IMG/VR virus record: IMGVR_UViG_3300035703_000042
Location: 1-64,000 of that record
Strand: one strand, 5' to 3'
DNA: 64,000 nt
From: a virus
Both the position numbers and the translations under genes were made by a program. The notes under the pieces were generated by a model. It saw only the letters and a program-made list of their open reading frames with translations, did no database searches and had not been told where the DNA came from. Positions 24,458 to 64,000 of the stretch are shown piece after piece; position 1 is the stretch's first letter; each line of letters opens with the position of its first letter.

Positions 24458-25597
24458 ATGACAACACCAAACATCAAAAACTTTTATTGCCCCGACATTT
24501 ACAAGAGTATTTTTTTACGTAGCATAGGTGAAAATCGAATCGAGCTAGGATTTTGTTGCCAATCCCGAGTTGACAGGATTGACTTAGACAATCTAAACTC
24601 GGCACTGTCAGAGAAAAGGCAGCGTTGGCAGGAATCTAGTGGCAAGAGCGATTGTATGAATTGTATAAATCTAGAATCGCGAGGTTTGACTAGTCGTAGA
24701 CATGCGTCTATGGAATATTTTTCAAATCTCGGAGAAAAACTGGACGAACATACAGATTTGATCAATCTAGAATGGAATTGTGACAACGTTTGTAATCTAG
24801 CCTGCCTGACCTGCGGTCCTGTTTTTAGTAGTCGATGGATGCAAGAAATCAATAGTTACAGTTGGAAAGATAGACGTAAACATCGTATATTAAACAAGTC
24901 AACTTTTGTAATCGACAATCTAGACATTAAAAATTTACGTCGCGTATATTTCAACGGTGGGGAGCCGTTGTTGACTGATGATCATAAAAGAATCATGGAC
25001 AAACTTCGAAGCAATGGTAGATTATCGCAGTGTGAGATTTCCTACAATACCAATTGTACTATCTTTCCTGATGCTCAGACATTGGATTTCTGGAGAGAAG
25101 CCAAACTTGTGAGATTGTTTCTAAGTTTGGATGCCATTGGAGAAGCTTTTGAATTTATCAGATGGCCGGCTCGATGGCATCTTGTAGAGAAGTTTCTTGA
25201 ATTTATAAAATCTCAGGATTTCAACATCATATTGGATATAACATGTACTGTAGGTATACACAATGTATTTTATTTACATACCCTAAGAAAATGGCAAAAA
25301 GATAATCTGCCTTGTAATCATCAAGGAGATCCGGTGTCTCTTAATTTACAACCTTGCGGTGATATGAGCTGGGGAGGTAAAAGTCTATCGTTGACAAATG
25401 TGAGTCAAATGGTTAGAGACGATATTGAGCACTATTGTAAAGAACATGATTTTGGTGATGTCAGGGCGTGGCTATCAACAGAATCAAACTCCAATGACGA
25501 TAGCACGTGGATAAAATATCTCGACGAGATCAGCAACGTGCGCGGGGTGGATTGGAAAAAATCTCTAGTCTATTTGGCCGAGAGATGTCGTATTTGA
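24458..25597 (+). CDS. Twitch-domain radical SAM protein 1
   Basis: Radical SAM enzyme: CNLACLTC (C-x3-C-x2-C) binds the 4Fe-4S cluster; YFNGGEPLL is the GGE SAM-contact motif; LFLSLDAIGEAFEFIRWP is the characteristic later strand. The N-terminal FYCPDIY... FCCQSR and SDCMNC Cys clusters resemble the extra Cys-rich N-terminus of twitch-type radical SAM proteins. 379 residues. It is AT-rich relative to the helicase gene. It ends 7 nt from the convergent paralogue. Product unknown; such proteins are often found in phages and in peptide or glycan modification loci. Confidence 0.85.
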   Translation: MTTPNIKNFYCPDIYKSIFLRSIGENRIELGFCCQSRVDRIDLDNLNSALSEKRQRWQESSGKSDCMNCINLESRGLTSRRHASMEYFSNLGEKLDEHTDLINLEWNCDNVCNLACLTCGPVFSSRWMQEINSYSWKDRRKHRILNKSTFVIDNLDIKNLRRVYFNGGEPLLTDDHKRIMDKLRSNGRLSQCEISYNTNCTIFPDAQTLDFWREAKLVRLFLSLDAIGEAFEFIRWPARWHLVEKFLEFIKSQDFNIILDITCTVGIHNVFYLHTLRKWQKDNLPCNHQGDPVSLNLQPCGDMSWGGKSLSLTNVSQMVRDDIEHYCKEHDFGDVRAWLSTESNSNDDSTWIKYLDEISNVRGVDWKKSLVYLAERCRI

Positions 25598-25604
25598 TAA
25601 CAAG

Positions 25605-26657
25605 TCAAAAACTATCATCCATCAATCTCGCCAACTCGGGCAATGATTCACGATAGTTGGTATTTTTAAGCTGATCTTGCTTTAAAAGTTCGTTGGTAAA
25701 TGTTTCAATATCAATCTCGTGTCCTGTGATCTCACTGTAACCATCGAGAAAATCATGGTCTTTTAGCGATTTCTTGATGCCCACGGGCGCCTTGTCCAAG
25801 CTGGCCCATTTAGGATAATACACTATATTCTGATTGTATTTCAGACCCTGCGACTCAAACCAATCCACGGTTTCGTCATAATAGATAGCGTTGACACTGC
25901 TAATAGTGTAGCTCACAGACAAGTTATCAGTGATGGTACGATATTGATCGAGGTTGCTGAGTAATTTCTGCCATTTTCCGGGCCAGCGAAGATATTCGAA
26001 TCGAGACTCGATACCGTCTATGCTAATACAAATGTTAATGTCTTTGAATTTTTTTATGACTTTGATCCAGTGATCGTCCAAAGTCACACTGCCATTAGTT
26101 ACAAAACTTATAAAACATTCGTGATTGTTGTAATCTAACAAGGTTGACAATATTTTCAAAGTATTGGGATCAAACAACGGTTCTCCGCCTAACAACGAAA
26201 TTCGACATGCTTTAGCCCAATTGATATCCAGGTCGTCAATGTTGATTTGATGTGATTGATCTCGGAGTATACCCAGACGTTTTTCAAGTTCTACCCACCG
26301 AGTACTTAAATTACCGTTGCATGTTACACAGGCTTGATTGCAAAGATTCCCCAGCATGATTTGATATATCAAAGGTTCGTAACGACCTTGACGCACATCT
26401 TCTTCGATGGAGATAATATCTCTGTCCAGCTTGGAATCAAGAAATATGTTTTCTTGCTGTCTTCTACTTCTCATGCCCTGTTCTTCAAGTTTCCAGCATT
26501 TCTGACACTCGTGCGTCCGATGTCCTGAAAGAAGATTTTCTCTCAGTGAAAGTAGATCAAATTCTGCCGGTAATAGGCAGCAAGGAGTGAACCGATTTTT
26601 GCTTAATTCAAGGCTGTACCAAGGTAACACGCAGAACGTTGGACTAAGATTATTCAT
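25605..26657 (-). CDS. Twitch-domain radical SAM protein 2
   Basis: Minus-strand paralogue of the gene at 24458. FCVLPWYSLE near the N-terminus, then TPCC, CQKC, CNQACVTC (C-x3-C-x2-C cluster motif), SLLGGEPLF (GGE) and ISIDGIESRFEYLRWP. 350 residues. A TATTTAC at 26665-26671 (GTAAATA on the minus strand) lies just upstream. Convergent placement with copy 1 suggests exchange by inversion or independent insertion. Substrate unknown. Confidence 0.85.
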   Translation of the reverse strand: MNNLSPTFCVLPWYSLELSKNRFTPCCLLPAEFDLLSLRENLLSGHRTHECQKCWKLEEQGMRSRRQQENIFLDSKLDRDIISIEEDVRQGRYEPLIYQIMLGNLCNQACVTCNGNLSTRWVELEKRLGILRDQSHQINIDDLDINWAKACRISLLGGEPLFDPNTLKILSTLLDYNNHECFISFVTNGSVTLDDHWIKVIKKFKDINICISIDGIESRFEYLRWPGKWQKLLSNLDQYRTITDNLSVSYTISSVNAIYYDETVDWFESQGLKYNQNIVYYPKWASLDKAPVGIKKSLKDHDFLDGYSEITGHEIDIETFTNELLKQDQLKNTNYRESLPELARLMDDSF

Positions 26658-31966: not shown

Positions 31967-32869
31967 ATGGCCGAACGAATACTACTCGATCGACTCGAGT
32001 TCTATATTACCAACGTCTGTAACCTTACCTGTAACGGTTGTAATCGTTACAACAATTACCATTTCAAGGGGTGGACGGCCTGGGACGAATGGGCCGAGGA
32101 TCTTGAGCGTTGGTCAAAGTACATCGACATCCGACATCCGGTGATCCTGGGCGGCGAACCCTTGATGAATCGTGATATCGTGAAATGGGTCAAAGGCTTG
32201 CGTCGACTATGGCCCGATCATTCAGGAGTGCAGATCCAAAGCAATGGTACCAGGATCGATCGTGTGCGTGGTTTGTACGATGTGCTGGATCCCAAAGAAG
32301 GCAACTGGATCGGTATCAGCATACACAACCCTGATGACAAAGAAGAGATTTTTTCGCGCATACGCAACTTCCTCACACATCCCATACGCGAGACTGCAGA
32401 TAAAAATCATCCCATTGGCAGCGATTTCCAGTTCTACGATGCCAATAACATGTATGTGCATGCTTGGATGAGTAACAAGTTTGTACAGAGCAATATCATC
32501 GAGCGTGATGATGGTACGTTTACAGTATACAATCACGACAACCCCGAACGCGCACATGAGATCTGTACTTTCCGCAGATTCAAGAACTATCACTGGATCA
32601 ACGGACGCATTTACAAGTGCGGACCTGCAGCTCTCATGCCCGAATTTGATCGCCAGCATCATTTTGACATATCCGAAGAGGATCGTGCTATCATGCACGG
32701 ATATCGAGGACTGAGTGTGGACGAGTTTGACGAGCGAGGGCACGACTTCCTTGCCCACATCGATGACATGATTCCGCAATGCAAATTTTGCCCCCAGGAC
32801 TACGATTACAAACCCATTACATTTTCAGACCGCAAAAAGAGTTGGCGGATCAGCACAGAAATATTATAG
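31967..32869 (+). CDS. Radical SAM protein 3 with Cys-rich C-terminus
   Basis: A 300-residue enzyme: CNLTCNGC (C-x3-C-x2-C) at about residues 17-24, VILGGEPLM (GGE motif), then a Cys-rich C-terminal part (EICTFRRF, YKCGPAAL, CKFCPQ) which could hold an auxiliary Fe-S cluster as in SPASM/twitch enzymes. It differs from the other three radical SAM proteins, which share FCxLPW. It is followed by the homing endonuclease and the iscU/iscA genes; Fe-S supply next to an Fe-S enzyme is suggestive. Confidence 0.82.
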   Translation: MAERILLDRLEFYITNVCNLTCNGCNRYNNYHFKGWTAWDEWAEDLERWSKYIDIRHPVILGGEPLMNRDIVKWVKGLRRLWPDHSGVQIQSNGTRIDRVRGLYDVLDPKEGNWIGISIHNPDDKEEIFSRIRNFLTHPIRETADKNHPIGSDFQFYDANNMYVHAWMSNKFVQSNIIERDDGTFTVYNHDNPERAHEICTFRRFKNYHWINGRIYKCGPAALMPEFDRQHHFDISEEDRAIMHGYRGLSVDEFDERGHDFLAHIDDMIPQCKFCPQDYDYKPITFSDRKKSWRISTEIL

Positions 32870-48038: not shown

Positions 48039-49466
48039 ATGTATCTAACTTACATCATGTTGCTGGTGGCTCTTTGCCTGTCAGCAGTGGCCGCATTTTA
48101 CAGCATAGTGGGACTCACAGCCATTTTTGCCGCTGCTGCTGTGCCCATCGTCATCATGGGATCCATCTTGGAAGTGGCCAAGCTGGTGGTCACGGTTTGG
48201 TTGCACGAATACTGGCGCGATATCAAATTCTCAATGAAGGCATATTTGGTACCAGCAGTGGCCATACTCATGCTGATCACCAGCATGGGAATCTTTGGGT
48301 TCTTGAGCAAGGCGCACTTGGATCAAACCGTGCCCACTGGCGACGTGGCCGCTCAAGTGGCCATCATTGATGAAAAGATCAACAACGAGCGCGATACCAT
48401 AGCCAATGCCCGGGCATTGCTGACACAGTTGGATCAAGCCGTGAACAACATTGGTGCCGCACCTGATCGTGAAGTGAATGGCCGCGTGGTATCATCGGCC
48501 GAACGTGCCTTGCAGGTGCGTCGCCAGCAGGCTCGTGATCGTGCAAATCTCACTGAAACCATCGAAGCTGCACAGGCCCGTATCATAAAATTGCAGGAAG
48601 AAAAGGCTCCTTTTGCCAAGGAGCTGAGAAAAGTCGAGGCCGAAGTTGGTCCCATCAAATACATCGCTGCCTTGATCTACGGCGACGATGCCACCGACAT
48701 CAATCTCTTGGAACGAGCCGTGAGATGGGTGATCATAATCTTGGTCTTGGTGTTTGATCCCTTGGCTGTGATGATGCTGTTGGCCGCCACCGAAAGTCGT
48801 CGCTGGGAACTGGAACGACGTCGTCGATTGGCCACAGAACACGTATTGCCTGACACTGCCGGAGAAACGAACGATGAATCAGATCATGCCCATGTTGATC
48901 ACACGCCTGTGGTTGAACCACCTCGAGGAGATGTTGACCCTGACCCTGCCGTGGCTGACGCCGTGGATACAGGACCAGGACCAGGACCCACTATGGTGGA
49001 ACCGCAGCTTGAACCAGATCATGACATTGACGAGGATGATGACGACGATGCCGACGACGAACCGATCAAGCAGTCCAAGCGTTTGTGGAAACTAGATAAC
49101 CCAGACAAAACTATCAAGGAACAGCGACGCCTTTATGAATTGGGGAAAATCGATCATCTCCCGTGGTTGGACTATCTAGAAAGAGACGAGATAACCAGTG
49201 AATTCGGCACAGAATTTCCAGTATCGGCCATCAAAGGCGATCTGTTTGTGATGATCAATCAGGTTCCTACTTCGCTTTACAAATACAATGGCATCAAGTG
49301 GATACAGATTGACAAAAACATCACAGATCGCTATGCTTATAATTCAGCTTACATCGACTATTTGATTGCCAAGATTAGTACCGGCGAATACGACCCCGAT
49401 TTGCTCAGCGACGGCGAACGGGCACAACTTGAATCTCGACTCAGACAAGACTTGATCAATGAATGA
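48039..49466 (+). CDS. Multi-pass membrane protein with coiled coil and acidic tail
   Basis: A 475-residue protein: three hydrophobic segments in residues 1-95 ([61 protein letters not shown]), a coiled coil (about 105-205), a fourth membrane segment ([20 protein letters not shown], about 228-247), then a His/Asp/Pro-rich acidic linker (about 285-345) and a basic globular end. Similar membrane proteins are known from marine T4-like phages. It could scaffold envelope remodelling; unproven. Last 8 nt overlap clpX. Confidence 0.7.
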
Positions 49467-50658
49467 ACCCACCCAATGCTGTAGTTTTTGTGGCAAACCC
49501 AAAGACCTTGTAGGAAAACTCATAGTCAGCGACTCAGTGGCTATCTGTAATGAGTGTGTGGCTTTGTGCGAAGAGTTACTAGCGGATTCCCCTGGCAGTG
49601 TCATCACCGATCTCGACGATGATAAAATGGATCCTATGCGACTCAAGGATTTCTTGGACGAATATGTGATCGGTCAAGATCAAGCCAAGATCATGCTCAG
49701 TGTAGCGATCGTAAATCATTACAAACGCATACAAAATACCAGCAACAAAGAGATCTCCAAGGCCAATGTGTTGATGCTGGGACCTACCGGGTCGGGCAAG
49801 ACTCTCCTGGCACAGACAGTGGCGCGATATCTAGATGTGCCTTTTGCTATCGCAGATGCTACCAGCCTCACCGAAGCAGGTTATGTAGGCGACGACGTGG
49901 AAAGTCTGATCGGGCGTTTGTATGCCAACTCCGGCAATGATGTGGCTCGTACACAGCGCGGTATCGTATTTGTGGACGAAATTGACAAGATCGCACGCAA
50001 GAGCGAAAATGCATCAATCACTCGAGACGTGTCAGGCGAAGGCGTACAGCAAGCCTTGCTCAAGCTAGTAGAAGGAACTGTTTGTCGAGTACCCGTGAGT
50101 GGGGGGCGCAAGCATCCCACTGGTGACATGGTCGAAGTTGACACACGAAACATATTGTTTATTGCCGGTGGTGCTTTTGTGGGATTGGAAAAAATTATCA
50201 GCAATCGATTATCGGGCACCAGCATCGGATTCAACAGCCTGGTAAAACAAAAACAGCAAGTCGATCTATCAATGAGCACACCCGACGATCTTGTGAGATT
50301 TGGTCTCATTCCTGAATTGATTGGTCGTTTCGCCAGCGTGGTGTCACTGCGAGAATTGGAAAAATCAGATCTCATGCGCGTTTTCACCGAAGTTAAAAAC
50401 AACTATGTGGACCAGTATTGTTGGTTGTTTCAACAAGACGGTGTGGACTTACATATCTCACAAGATGCTTTGGAAGGCATGGTTGATCGTGCTATCAAAT
50501 CAGGCACAGGCGCCCGTGCTTTACACAGCGAGATAGAACGAGCCCTGATGCCGCACATGTTTTATATCAAGAAGTATATATCGCTGGGGATCAAAAGCAT
50601 CGACATCACTGCGGATCTGGTAAATAATCCGCGTTCGATACAGGAGACGTCACATTGA
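49459..50658 (+). CDS. clpX: ClpX, AAA+ unfoldase of the Clp protease
   Basis: A complete ClpX (399 residues; E. coli 424). The N-terminal zinc domain has C8-x2-C11 and C30-x2-C33. Walker A GPTGSGKT (108-115), pore loop GYVGD (141-145), Walker B VDEID (172-176), RKHP loop (217-220) and the ClpP-docking tripeptide IGF (256-258) are intact; the Arg-finger segment PELIGR (285-290) and sensor 2 GTGARAL follow. No ClpP is present here, so it must dock on host ClpP. It overlaps the membrane protein by 8 nt and bS21 by TTGA. Confidence 0.95.
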
Positions 50659-52747: not shown

Positions 52748-52776
52748 TTGACACAGCACGAGTTTTCATGTATAAA
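52748..52776 (+). promoter_or_regulatory. Sigma70-type promoter of hsp20
   Basis: TTGACA (52748-52753), exact 17-nt spacer, TATAAA (52771-52776). The same bases read TATAAATA (52771-52778), an exact T4 late promoter match, so two polymerase forms may use it. Start expected near 52783. Confidence 0.82.
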
Positions 52777-52782
52777 TACACT

Positions 52783-52842
52783 TGTAGCGCCGATGTTTGG
52801 GCTACACAAGTCATTCTTGCTTAACGAAAGGAGAATACAATG
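52783..52842 (+). promoter_or_regulatory. ROSE-like RNA thermometer in the hsp20 leader
   Basis: The roughly 57-nt leader folds into two hairpins. Hairpin I: TGTAGC (52783-52788) with GCTACA (52801-52806). Hairpin II: ATTCTT-G-CTT (52813-52822) pairs with AAAGGAGAAT (52827-52836), hiding the ribosome site AGGAG; the G at 52819 is bulged and one U-G pair lies next to it. This UUGCU-type strand with a bulged G opposite the Shine-Dalgarno sequence is the core of ROSE thermometers that control small heat-shock genes in proteobacteria. Confidence 0.75.
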
Positions 52843-53280
52843 ACTAAAATCACTAGTTTTGACCTCGCACCTTTTTACCGCAACACAGTGGGTGTCGATC
52901 GCTTGTTTGATCGCATCACACAGCAGTTTGAATCTGCTGCCGCTGTAGGTAACTACCCTCCCTTTGACACTGTCAAAATCGCCGAAGACAGCTATGAGAT
53001 CCGCATCGCTGCCGCTGGATTCCGGCAAGACGAGATTGATGTAGAACTCAATGACAGTGTACTCACAGTCAAAGGAAGCCACCGCGACCAGCCACGCCAG
53101 GAAGTAGAATATCTACATCATGGTATCAGCAGTCGCGACTGGGTCCGTCAGTGGACTCTGGGAGAATACGTGGAAGTCAAAGGTGCTATCATGAAGGACG
53201 GCATCCTTACCATCCGTTTGGAGCGTATAGTGCCCGAGACCATGAAGCCTCGACGCATTGAGATCGAGTATCAGGTGTAA
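52840..53280 (+). CDS. hsp20: Small heat-shock protein Hsp20
   Basis: A 146-residue sHSP of the IbpA type with an alpha-crystallin domain: PPFDTVKIAEDSYEIRIAAAGF, LTVKGSHRD, ISSRDWVRQWTLGEYVEV and DGILTIRLERIVP. The (I/V)x(I/V) tail motif is seen near the C-terminus (RRIEIEYQV). These chaperones bind unfolding proteins in an ATP-independent way. ATG 52840 with AAGGAG sequestered in the leader. Strong own promoter. Confidence 0.95.
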   Translation: MTKITSFDLAPFYRNTVGVDRLFDRITQQFESAAAVGNYPPFDTVKIAEDSYEIRIAAAGFRQDEIDVELNDSVLTVKGSHRDQPRQEVEYLHHGISSRDWVRQWTLGEYVEVKGAIMKDGILTIRLERIVPETMKPRRIEIEYQV

Positions 53281-53334: not shown

Positions 53335-53643
53335 ATGTCTAATCCCGAGACCAAAACACACATCAGCCCCATGACCGATCTCGCAGAACCTCCCATGTTC
53401 CGTGTGATCTATGTCAACGACAATCAGACCAGCATGGAATTCGTGATCGAGAGCCTCATCGATCATTTCCAGTACACACCGGTCACGGCTGAGAAAATCA
53501 CCATAGACATCCACGAGCAAGGAGCCGCTGTGGTAGCTGTGCTACCCTATGAAGTGGCCGAGCAAAAAGGCATAGAAGTCACTGTGTCAGCTCGTGCTGC
53601 TGGATATCCCCTGCAGATCAAACTCGAACCCGATAACGGTTAA
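53335..53643 (+). CDS. clpS: ClpS adaptor
   Basis: ATG 53335 is chosen for its AAGGA site. 102 residues: FRVIYVNDNQTSMEFVIESL and IDIHEQGAAVVAVLPYEVAE match the ClpS core (N-D-(D/N)-x-T-x-M-x-F-V and H-x2-G). ClpS binds N-degron substrates and hands them to ClpA, or in other bacteria to other Clp unfoldases. A phage ClpS may divert N-end-rule substrates. It lies after hsp20 and 2.7 kb from clpX. Its end overlaps the convergent gene by 4 nt. Confidence 0.9.
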   Translation: MSNPETKTHISPMTDLAEPPMFRVIYVNDNQTSMEFVIESLIDHFQYTPVTAEKITIDIHEQGAAVVAVLPYEVAEQKGIEVTVSARAAGYPLQIKLEPDNG

Positions 53644-63859: not shown

Positions 63860-63927
63860 ATAGCAGAGTTAGATGCCGCATGGGGCGGGTCTATACCAAG
63901 CTACTCGCTAAACCAAGGAGAAACACC

Positions 63928-64000
63928 ATGATTGACTATACCAAAATCGACTTCAGCAAGTTTGACGCTACCAAGATGTTCAACCCTGACCAAATGATTG
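63928..64000 (+). CDS. Start of a possible phasin-like protein (partial)
   Basis: Only 24 residues are present before the right edge (MIDYTKIDFSKFDATKMFNP...). The alternating F-D-x-(S/T)-K-F spacing resembles the N-terminus of phasins, proteins coating polyhydroxyalkanoate granules. The gene has its own promoter and ribosome site. The fragment is too short to decide, so this is only a pointer for the neighbouring sequence. Confidence 0.35.
   Translation, partial: MIDYTKIDFSKFDATKMFNPDQMI

Follow-up and report, generated by a model that had tools for sequence, protein, structure and literature searches.

RNA thermometers are textbook bacterial regulators. The phage example cited in the review PMC4166951 is the thermosensor in the cIII mRNA of lambda (Altuvia et al. 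1989), likewise a temperature-dependent RNA in a phage mRNA, but one that opens in the cold rather than on warming, switches between two alternative folds, controls lysogeny and has a structure unrelated to the one described below. The closest described system is the ROSE_3 leader (RF02523) of Pseudomonas ibpA (Krajewski et al. 2013, PMC3669281), a leader of ~60 nt in front of a small heat-shock gene. It consists of two hairpins: a 5′ hairpin with an AUGCCGA..UCGGGU core and a bulged G, and a second hairpin in which U(U/C)GCU, again with a bulged G, faces the Shine-Dalgarno (SD) sequence. In the P. putida and P. aeruginosa versions of this leader, hairpin II melts while hairpin I stays, and reporters are regulated; when the bulged G was deleted or the U-G pair made stronger, regulation was disturbed or lost (PMC3669281). 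Here we describe a leader sharing these features in a phage genome, upstream of an hsp20 gene in the first 64,000 nucleotides (hereafter the window) of the 95,020-base virus record IMGVR_UViG_3300035703_000042. Judged by sequence comparison, this leader is probably a short two-hairpin ROSE-type translational thermometer. No earlier paper on phage ROSE-type hsp20 leaders was found in the open-access literature searched, most subscription journals being outside its coverage.

The hsp20 gene (52840..53280, plus strand, as are all features given below) encodes a small heat-shock protein of 146 aa, identified by PF00011 (E 3.6e-18), phrog_432 (E 3e-35) and protein alignment. Upstream, the sequence contains a -35 box TTGACA (52748..52753) and a -10 region TATAAATA (52771..52778), whose TATAAA lies at a 17-base spacing from TTGACA. 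The predicted transcript start is ~52783, which gives a leader of 57 nt ahead of the AUG at 52840. The consensus promoter reported in an earlier note on this DNA is therefore present and fits sigma-70, while a sigma-32 promoter, as in the bacterial ibpA setting, was sought at this leader and not found, TTGACA-17-TATAAA standing there instead. A T4-type late promoter reading of TATAAATA was also considered and rejected, since the octamer is not enriched in the genome (4 occurrences versus 3 for the reversed control) and the two boxes already fit a sigma-70 promoter.

After TATAAATA the leader reads UGUAGC-G-CCGA-UGU-UUGG-GCUACA, CA, AGUCAUU, CUU-G-CUU, AACGA, AAGGAG, AAUACA, AUGACU. Hairpin I (52783..52806), recognised from sequence, fold and covariation, occupies the 5′ end of the predicted transcript. 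Its lower stem UGUAGC/GCUACA pairs 52783-52788 with 52801-52806 and is followed by the conserved bulged G52789 and a CCGA/UUGG upper stem; the earlier note had placed this hairpin correctly, but had described it as a perfect 6-bp stem, which it exceeds. In hairpin II the anti-SD strand CUUGCUU (52816..52822; sequence, fold and conservation), containing the ROSE signature UUGCU (52817-52821) with the bulged G52819, pairs with the SD sequence AAGGAG (52828..52833; sequence and fold), and AUU 52813-52815 extends the pairing with AAU 52834-52836. The predicted fold of the leader cut at the AUG confirms that a hairpin with the bulged G52819 masks the SD sequence, and the positions on which the earlier note had built this proposal (UUCUU 52814-52818, G52819, CUU 52820-52822 and the AUG) were all exact when checked on the sequence. 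The predicted start leaves the anti-SD strand in the transcript. The motif CTTGCTTAN{1,8}AAAGGAG occurs once in the 64 kb and in none of 100 shuffles, and TTGCTTN{1,14}AAGGAG has a single occurrence in the 95-kb record.

The same leader precedes hsp20 in many other phages. Among 35 loci found by protein similarity, every one with enough upstream sequence has the same leader layout. From a protein-profile search the best 80 of 593 relatives were chosen without the leader pattern, so as to avoid pattern bias, and 79 leaders were scored: Y(U/C)GCU lies ahead of the SD sequence in 73 of them (75 by eye, which adds L303 and L305, where the start had been miscalled). The 79 include one Salmonella-type ibpA leader (L318). 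Conversely, 2.9 million viral contigs were scanned with the pattern only; among the matches listed, 131 of 156 precede hsp20, seven dnaK and one groES, and the rest are mostly truncated loci or chance matches. A UUGCU/UCGCU anti-SD strand is present before hsp20 in Pelagibacter phages HTVC008M, HTVC115P, HTVC103P and Mosig, in Methylophilales phage Melnitz-3, phage C48C1 and Sinorhizobium phage Phosso, and in cyanophages S-PM2, S-SKS1, S-CREM1 and Syn33; most of these 11 phages also have a recognisable 5′ hairpin. The same leader also stands upstream of hsp20 in bacterial contigs, from SAR11, SAR86 and other alphaproteobacteria, but with different promoters: allowing that the contigs compared may share ancestry or be mis-binned, a sigma-32-like CTTGA[AT] was found in 30/53 bacterial versus 6/126 viral leaders and [TA]ATAAATA, mostly 3-5 nt 5′ of hairpin I, in 67/126 viral versus 3/53 bacterial leaders. 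TTGAC is present upstream in 44/126 viral leaders.

Covariation was counted in alignment A3, which has equal segment lengths; the MAFFT alignments A1 and A2 were out of structural register and were excluded from the counts. In hairpin I the core Y-G-CC..GG-R, whose G is bulged, is fixed, but the stem on which it sits varies freely in sequence; 104 of 140 viral leaders have the exact core with at least four stem pairs, where dinucleotide shuffles would give 0.22. In A3 both sides have changed in 7 of the 9 pairs of hairpin I, a count that ignores shared ancestry. For the whole structure, 98.5% of the cells in A3 are paired, compared with 79.0% after shuffling and 42-61% when the partner is slid, values uncorrected for ancestry. 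In hairpin II, 39 of 64 non-redundant leaders form a pair next to the CUU..GAG core (T-A in 26, C-G in 7, A-T in 6); again without correction for ancestry, this corresponds to 61% paired versus 43% after permutation, with 0 of 2000 permutations as high. In Mosig the flanking pairing is extended to AAAC/GUUU. The expectation in the earlier note that related leaders would covary was thus borne out, strongly in hairpin I and, for hairpin II, at the flank of the SD core.

It could be argued that the 5′ hairpin merely protects the mRNA end and that the SD pairing is incidental, with no regulation. Hairpin I does sit at the predicted transcript start, the predicted masking strength is ordinary, and 5′-terminal stem-loops stabilise transcripts (discussed in PMC3669281). 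This explanation, however, leaves unaccounted for the near-universal U(U/C)GCU facing the SD sequence in phage and bacterial hsp20 leaders, the covariation at the SD flank and the reuse of the leader before dnaK and groES, and we regard it as very improbable.

Kinship with the ROSE thermometers was further examined with R1, a covariance model for which 13 phage leaders were used; four of these belong to the window's own sub-group (see below), and neither the window nor any Pseudomonas sequence was among them. With E-values that are to be taken as rough, R1 scored the window leader at 33.2 bits (E 5.4e-7; next match in the window 13 bits) and, in one search with it, the L289 leader of P. aeruginosa-type ibpA at 31.5 bits (E 1.6e-6). 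It also gave strong scores, at the same spot, on most of the 79 protein-picked leaders. The L289 leader itself (OQ572409.1, a record labelled Pseudomonas phage Y7) is matched by Rfam ROSE_3 at 69.2 bits, and we infer that its ibpA is host-derived. Two records from phage collections have an ibpA region that resembles, or actually is, bacterial chromosome, namely OQ572409.1 (Pseudomonas-type) and AGRM01000003.1 (L290, Salmonella).

The sole Rfam family to recur at phage leaders was ROSE_3: 6 of the 20 loci matched it at E<=1.7, the best with 34.5 bits and E 0.0013, and relatives scored 22-34.5 bits, below the 43-bit gathering threshold. The features shared with ROSE leaders in general are the U(U/C)GCU anti-SD strand with its bulged G, a small heat-shock gene downstream and a structure supported by covariation; shared with ROSE_3 in particular are a 5′ hairpin with the Y-G(bulge)-CC..GG-R core, a short linker and an SD hairpin. 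The ROSE-like reading of the earlier note is thereby supported by conservation, by covariation in hairpin I and beside the SD sequence, and by a phage-built model that matches a ROSE_3 leader. Differences from the Pseudomonas leaders are the phage genome, the sigma-70-type instead of sigma-32 promoter, scores below the Rfam threshold, and a hairpin II closed by U-A pairs rather than by G-C and A-U pairs. The enterobacterial ibpA leaders of the ROSE_2 family (RF01832) share with the phage leader the U(U/C)GCU anti-SD strand, the bulged G and the small heat-shock gene, but they are longer, R1 misses the Salmonella ibpA leader and RF01832 misses the phage: ROSE_2 had no match at E<=0.001 in the 95-kb record, in a search that detected the E. 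coli control. The top Rfam match to the window leader was preQ1-II (RF01054), at 16 bits (E 6.3) against a gathering threshold of 47 bits. A ligand riboswitch of this type is hardly credible, as the loops are variable and chaperone rather than queuosine genes lie downstream; the match was discarded as a weak product of chance.

Several results weigh against the thermometer reading. The Rfam ROSE models, which the earlier note had put forward as a check, made no call on the window: at gathering level the window and 15 relatives gave zero ROSE matches, and the window leader, set against ROSE_3 (gathering 43 bits), gave zero ROSE matches even at E<=10. Since Rfam's own ROSE models miss threshold here, the leader is described as a putative ROSE_3-like variant and is not called a ROSE_3 member. 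Hairpin II offers no covariation in its SD/anti-SD core, which does not vary across the pattern-picked set, in part because this core served for retrieval. In the ViennaRNA folds, both hairpins are predicted at all temperatures from 10 to 48 C when the leader is cut at the AUG. The opening predicted by these folds is gradual only and comparable to that of the P. aeruginosa-type and Salmonella leaders: P(SD open) rises from 0.0004 (20 C) to 0.018 (42 C), or from 0.0003 to 0.0075 over the same range when coding sequence is included. Opening the SD sequence costs 4.6-4.7 kcal/mol at 20 C, similar to the cost in those two leaders, but 33% of the shuffled upstream sequences reach or surpass this value, and SD masking is no stronger than at nine further SD sites of the window. 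ROSE pairs lie outside the ViennaRNA energy parameters used, and the energies do not discriminate the leader from shuffles or other SD sites; folding energy was accordingly dropped as proof of a thermometer. The case for a putative ROSE-like leader is a comparative one, not one of folding energy.

For the proposed thermometer, the transcript start, melting in the host temperature range, translational control and the benefit to the phage are all inferred. Transcription would proceed from the sigma-70-type promoter, starting at ~52783, and because of this promoter type the mRNA would be made regardless of the host sigma-32 response. At low temperature hairpin II (CUU-G-CUU/AAGGAG, with one U-G pair and the bulged G52819) would conceal the ribosome site. 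Warming would open this weak hairpin, while the stable hairpin I would persist and could aid the fold and/or mRNA stability; once hairpin II had melted, Hsp20 would be translated.

In the window's sub-group of phages the start codon may be masked as well. The strand AGUCAU (52809..52814), which the earlier note overlooked and which is proposed from sequence, fold and a GTCA/ATGAC association, is fully complementary to AUGACU 52840-52845, and when coding sequence is added to the ViennaRNA fold an AGUCAUU/AAUGACU helix that covers the start codon competes. About 40 leaders, the window's among them, have AGUCA. Where the leader has GTCA just 5′ of the anti-SD strand, 39/40 phage hsp20 open reading frames (ORFs) start with ATGAC, versus 45/89 where GTCA is absent (Fisher p 2e-8), in keeping with such a helix. 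The AGUCA helix over the start codon is suggestive only, because its sixth pair is weakly non-random (26/39, permutation p 0.02) and lineages are shared. The Pseudomonas leaders differ in having an unpaired start codon (PMC3669281). A start-codon-trapping stem, as the AGUCA helix could form, is known from the Synechocystis hsp17 thermometer (PMC4477652), where an internal loop separates it from the SD-masking stem; that thermometer, in contrast to the phage leader, is a single hairpin with a UCCU anti-SD strand and no bulged G.

A different role for the leader is suggested by E. coli IbpA, which binds its own 5′ untranslated region and represses itself, for which R93 (accepting no substitute) and an aromatic residue at position 34 are needed (PMC10474464). 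In that species thermometer and self-repression are both found on one ROSE leader. By analogy, the phage leader might chiefly be an Hsp20 binding site, at which free Hsp20 represses its own translation until unfolded proteins titrate it away. It would then sense protein damage in infection rather than temperature, a function compatible with a thermometer. Shared with the E. coli case are the type of gene, the ROSE-type leader and the critical arginine and aromatic residue, the behaviour being known in E. coli and the phage Hsp20 being likened to it by sequence. The equivalents of IbpA R93 and Y34 in the phage protein are R99 and Y39, which are invariant in 11 aligned proteins. An arginine at the R93 position is found in 119/125 phage Hsp20s by pattern (123/125 by eye), and the shape of hairpin I is conserved beyond the need of a simple 5′ cap. 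On the other hand, R93 is common across alpha- and gamma-proteobacterial IbpA, so that the phage R99 may reflect ancestry, and K98, which matters in E. coli IbpA, is replaced by Q in the window's Hsp20. We consider it unlikely that Hsp20 binding is the chief role of the leader, though self-repression may act as a second layer beside the thermometer. The sensing of host heat stress assumed in the earlier note may nevertheless be partly a sensing of free Hsp20.

Nearly all the phage loci examined have the ROSE-type leader in front of hsp20, among them those of cultured cyanophages, pelagiphages and methylophages, so that existing phage-host systems allow an immediate test. A thermometer at these loci would imply that phages retained or acquired a regulatory RNA of the host along with its gene but exchanged the heat-shock promoter for another, and would tie the phage's chaperone supply to heat or protein damage, independently of host sigma-32. 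A reason for phages to carry hsp20 is suggested as well, namely the control of folding under stress in infection. More tentatively, many tailed phages may possess a sigma-32-independent chaperone regulon acting at the RNA level, in which one ROSE-type leader, transcribed from phage or sigma-70-type promoters, is reused before hsp20, dnaK, groES and other phage genes, the output directly tracks temperature and/or free Hsp20, and the ROSE leader of the host could be a further target of phage Hsp20.

With regard to the genomic setting, the virus record encodes phage replication, ribonucleotide reductase, tail and virion genes, and the hsp20 locus had no DNA-level relatives among named phages. Immediately 3′ of hsp20 lies a clpS adaptor gene (53335..53643; PF02617, E 1.6e-22), and a clpX-like ATPase (49459..50658; PF06689 zf-C4_ClpX and PF07724 AAA_2) is located upstream. 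Two ClpP-like proteases are encoded outside the window (L371 3784-4344 and 5495-6127, corresponding to record positions ~67384-67944 and ~69095-69727); the ClpX-like ATPase, Hsp20, ClpS and these two proteases make up the protein-quality-control set of this phage. Several radical SAM proteins are present in the same record (24458-26657 and 31967-32866 of the window; L371 2386-3783).

A second, weaker ROSE-like leader was found by R1 and Rfam at 63868..63920, with a UAGAU-G-CCGC/GCGG-GUCUA hairpin followed by CUC-G-CU pairing with AGGAG. R1 gives it 13.0 bits, with an E-value of 0.35 when 182 kb are searched and of 5.8e-4 for 301 b, and ROSE_3 ranks first of 4227 Rfam families on it, at 21.1 bits (E 0.03), below gathering. 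The 79-aa ORF behind it, at 63928, has no Pfam match and no relatives in viral contigs or phages. Other viral contigs carry more than one such leader or place it before other genes. In L016 (1041-2924, 3001-3432) and L139 (5943-7968) dnaK lies directly 5′ of hsp20, both genes having a ROSE-like leader of their own, and the genes beyond hsp20 in L016 resemble those 3′ of hsp20 in the window. A ROSE-like leader precedes groES in L141 (1326-1370), and in L056 (2230-2447) two are arranged in tandem, one ahead of a small rubredoxin-like ORF and one ahead of hsp20. Finally, in L027 (813-859) and L152 (5072-5119) ROSE-like leaders that follow TATAAATA stand upstream not of hsp20 but of ORFs of 8 and 14 codons, which are possibly leader peptides or reflect a frameshifted start.
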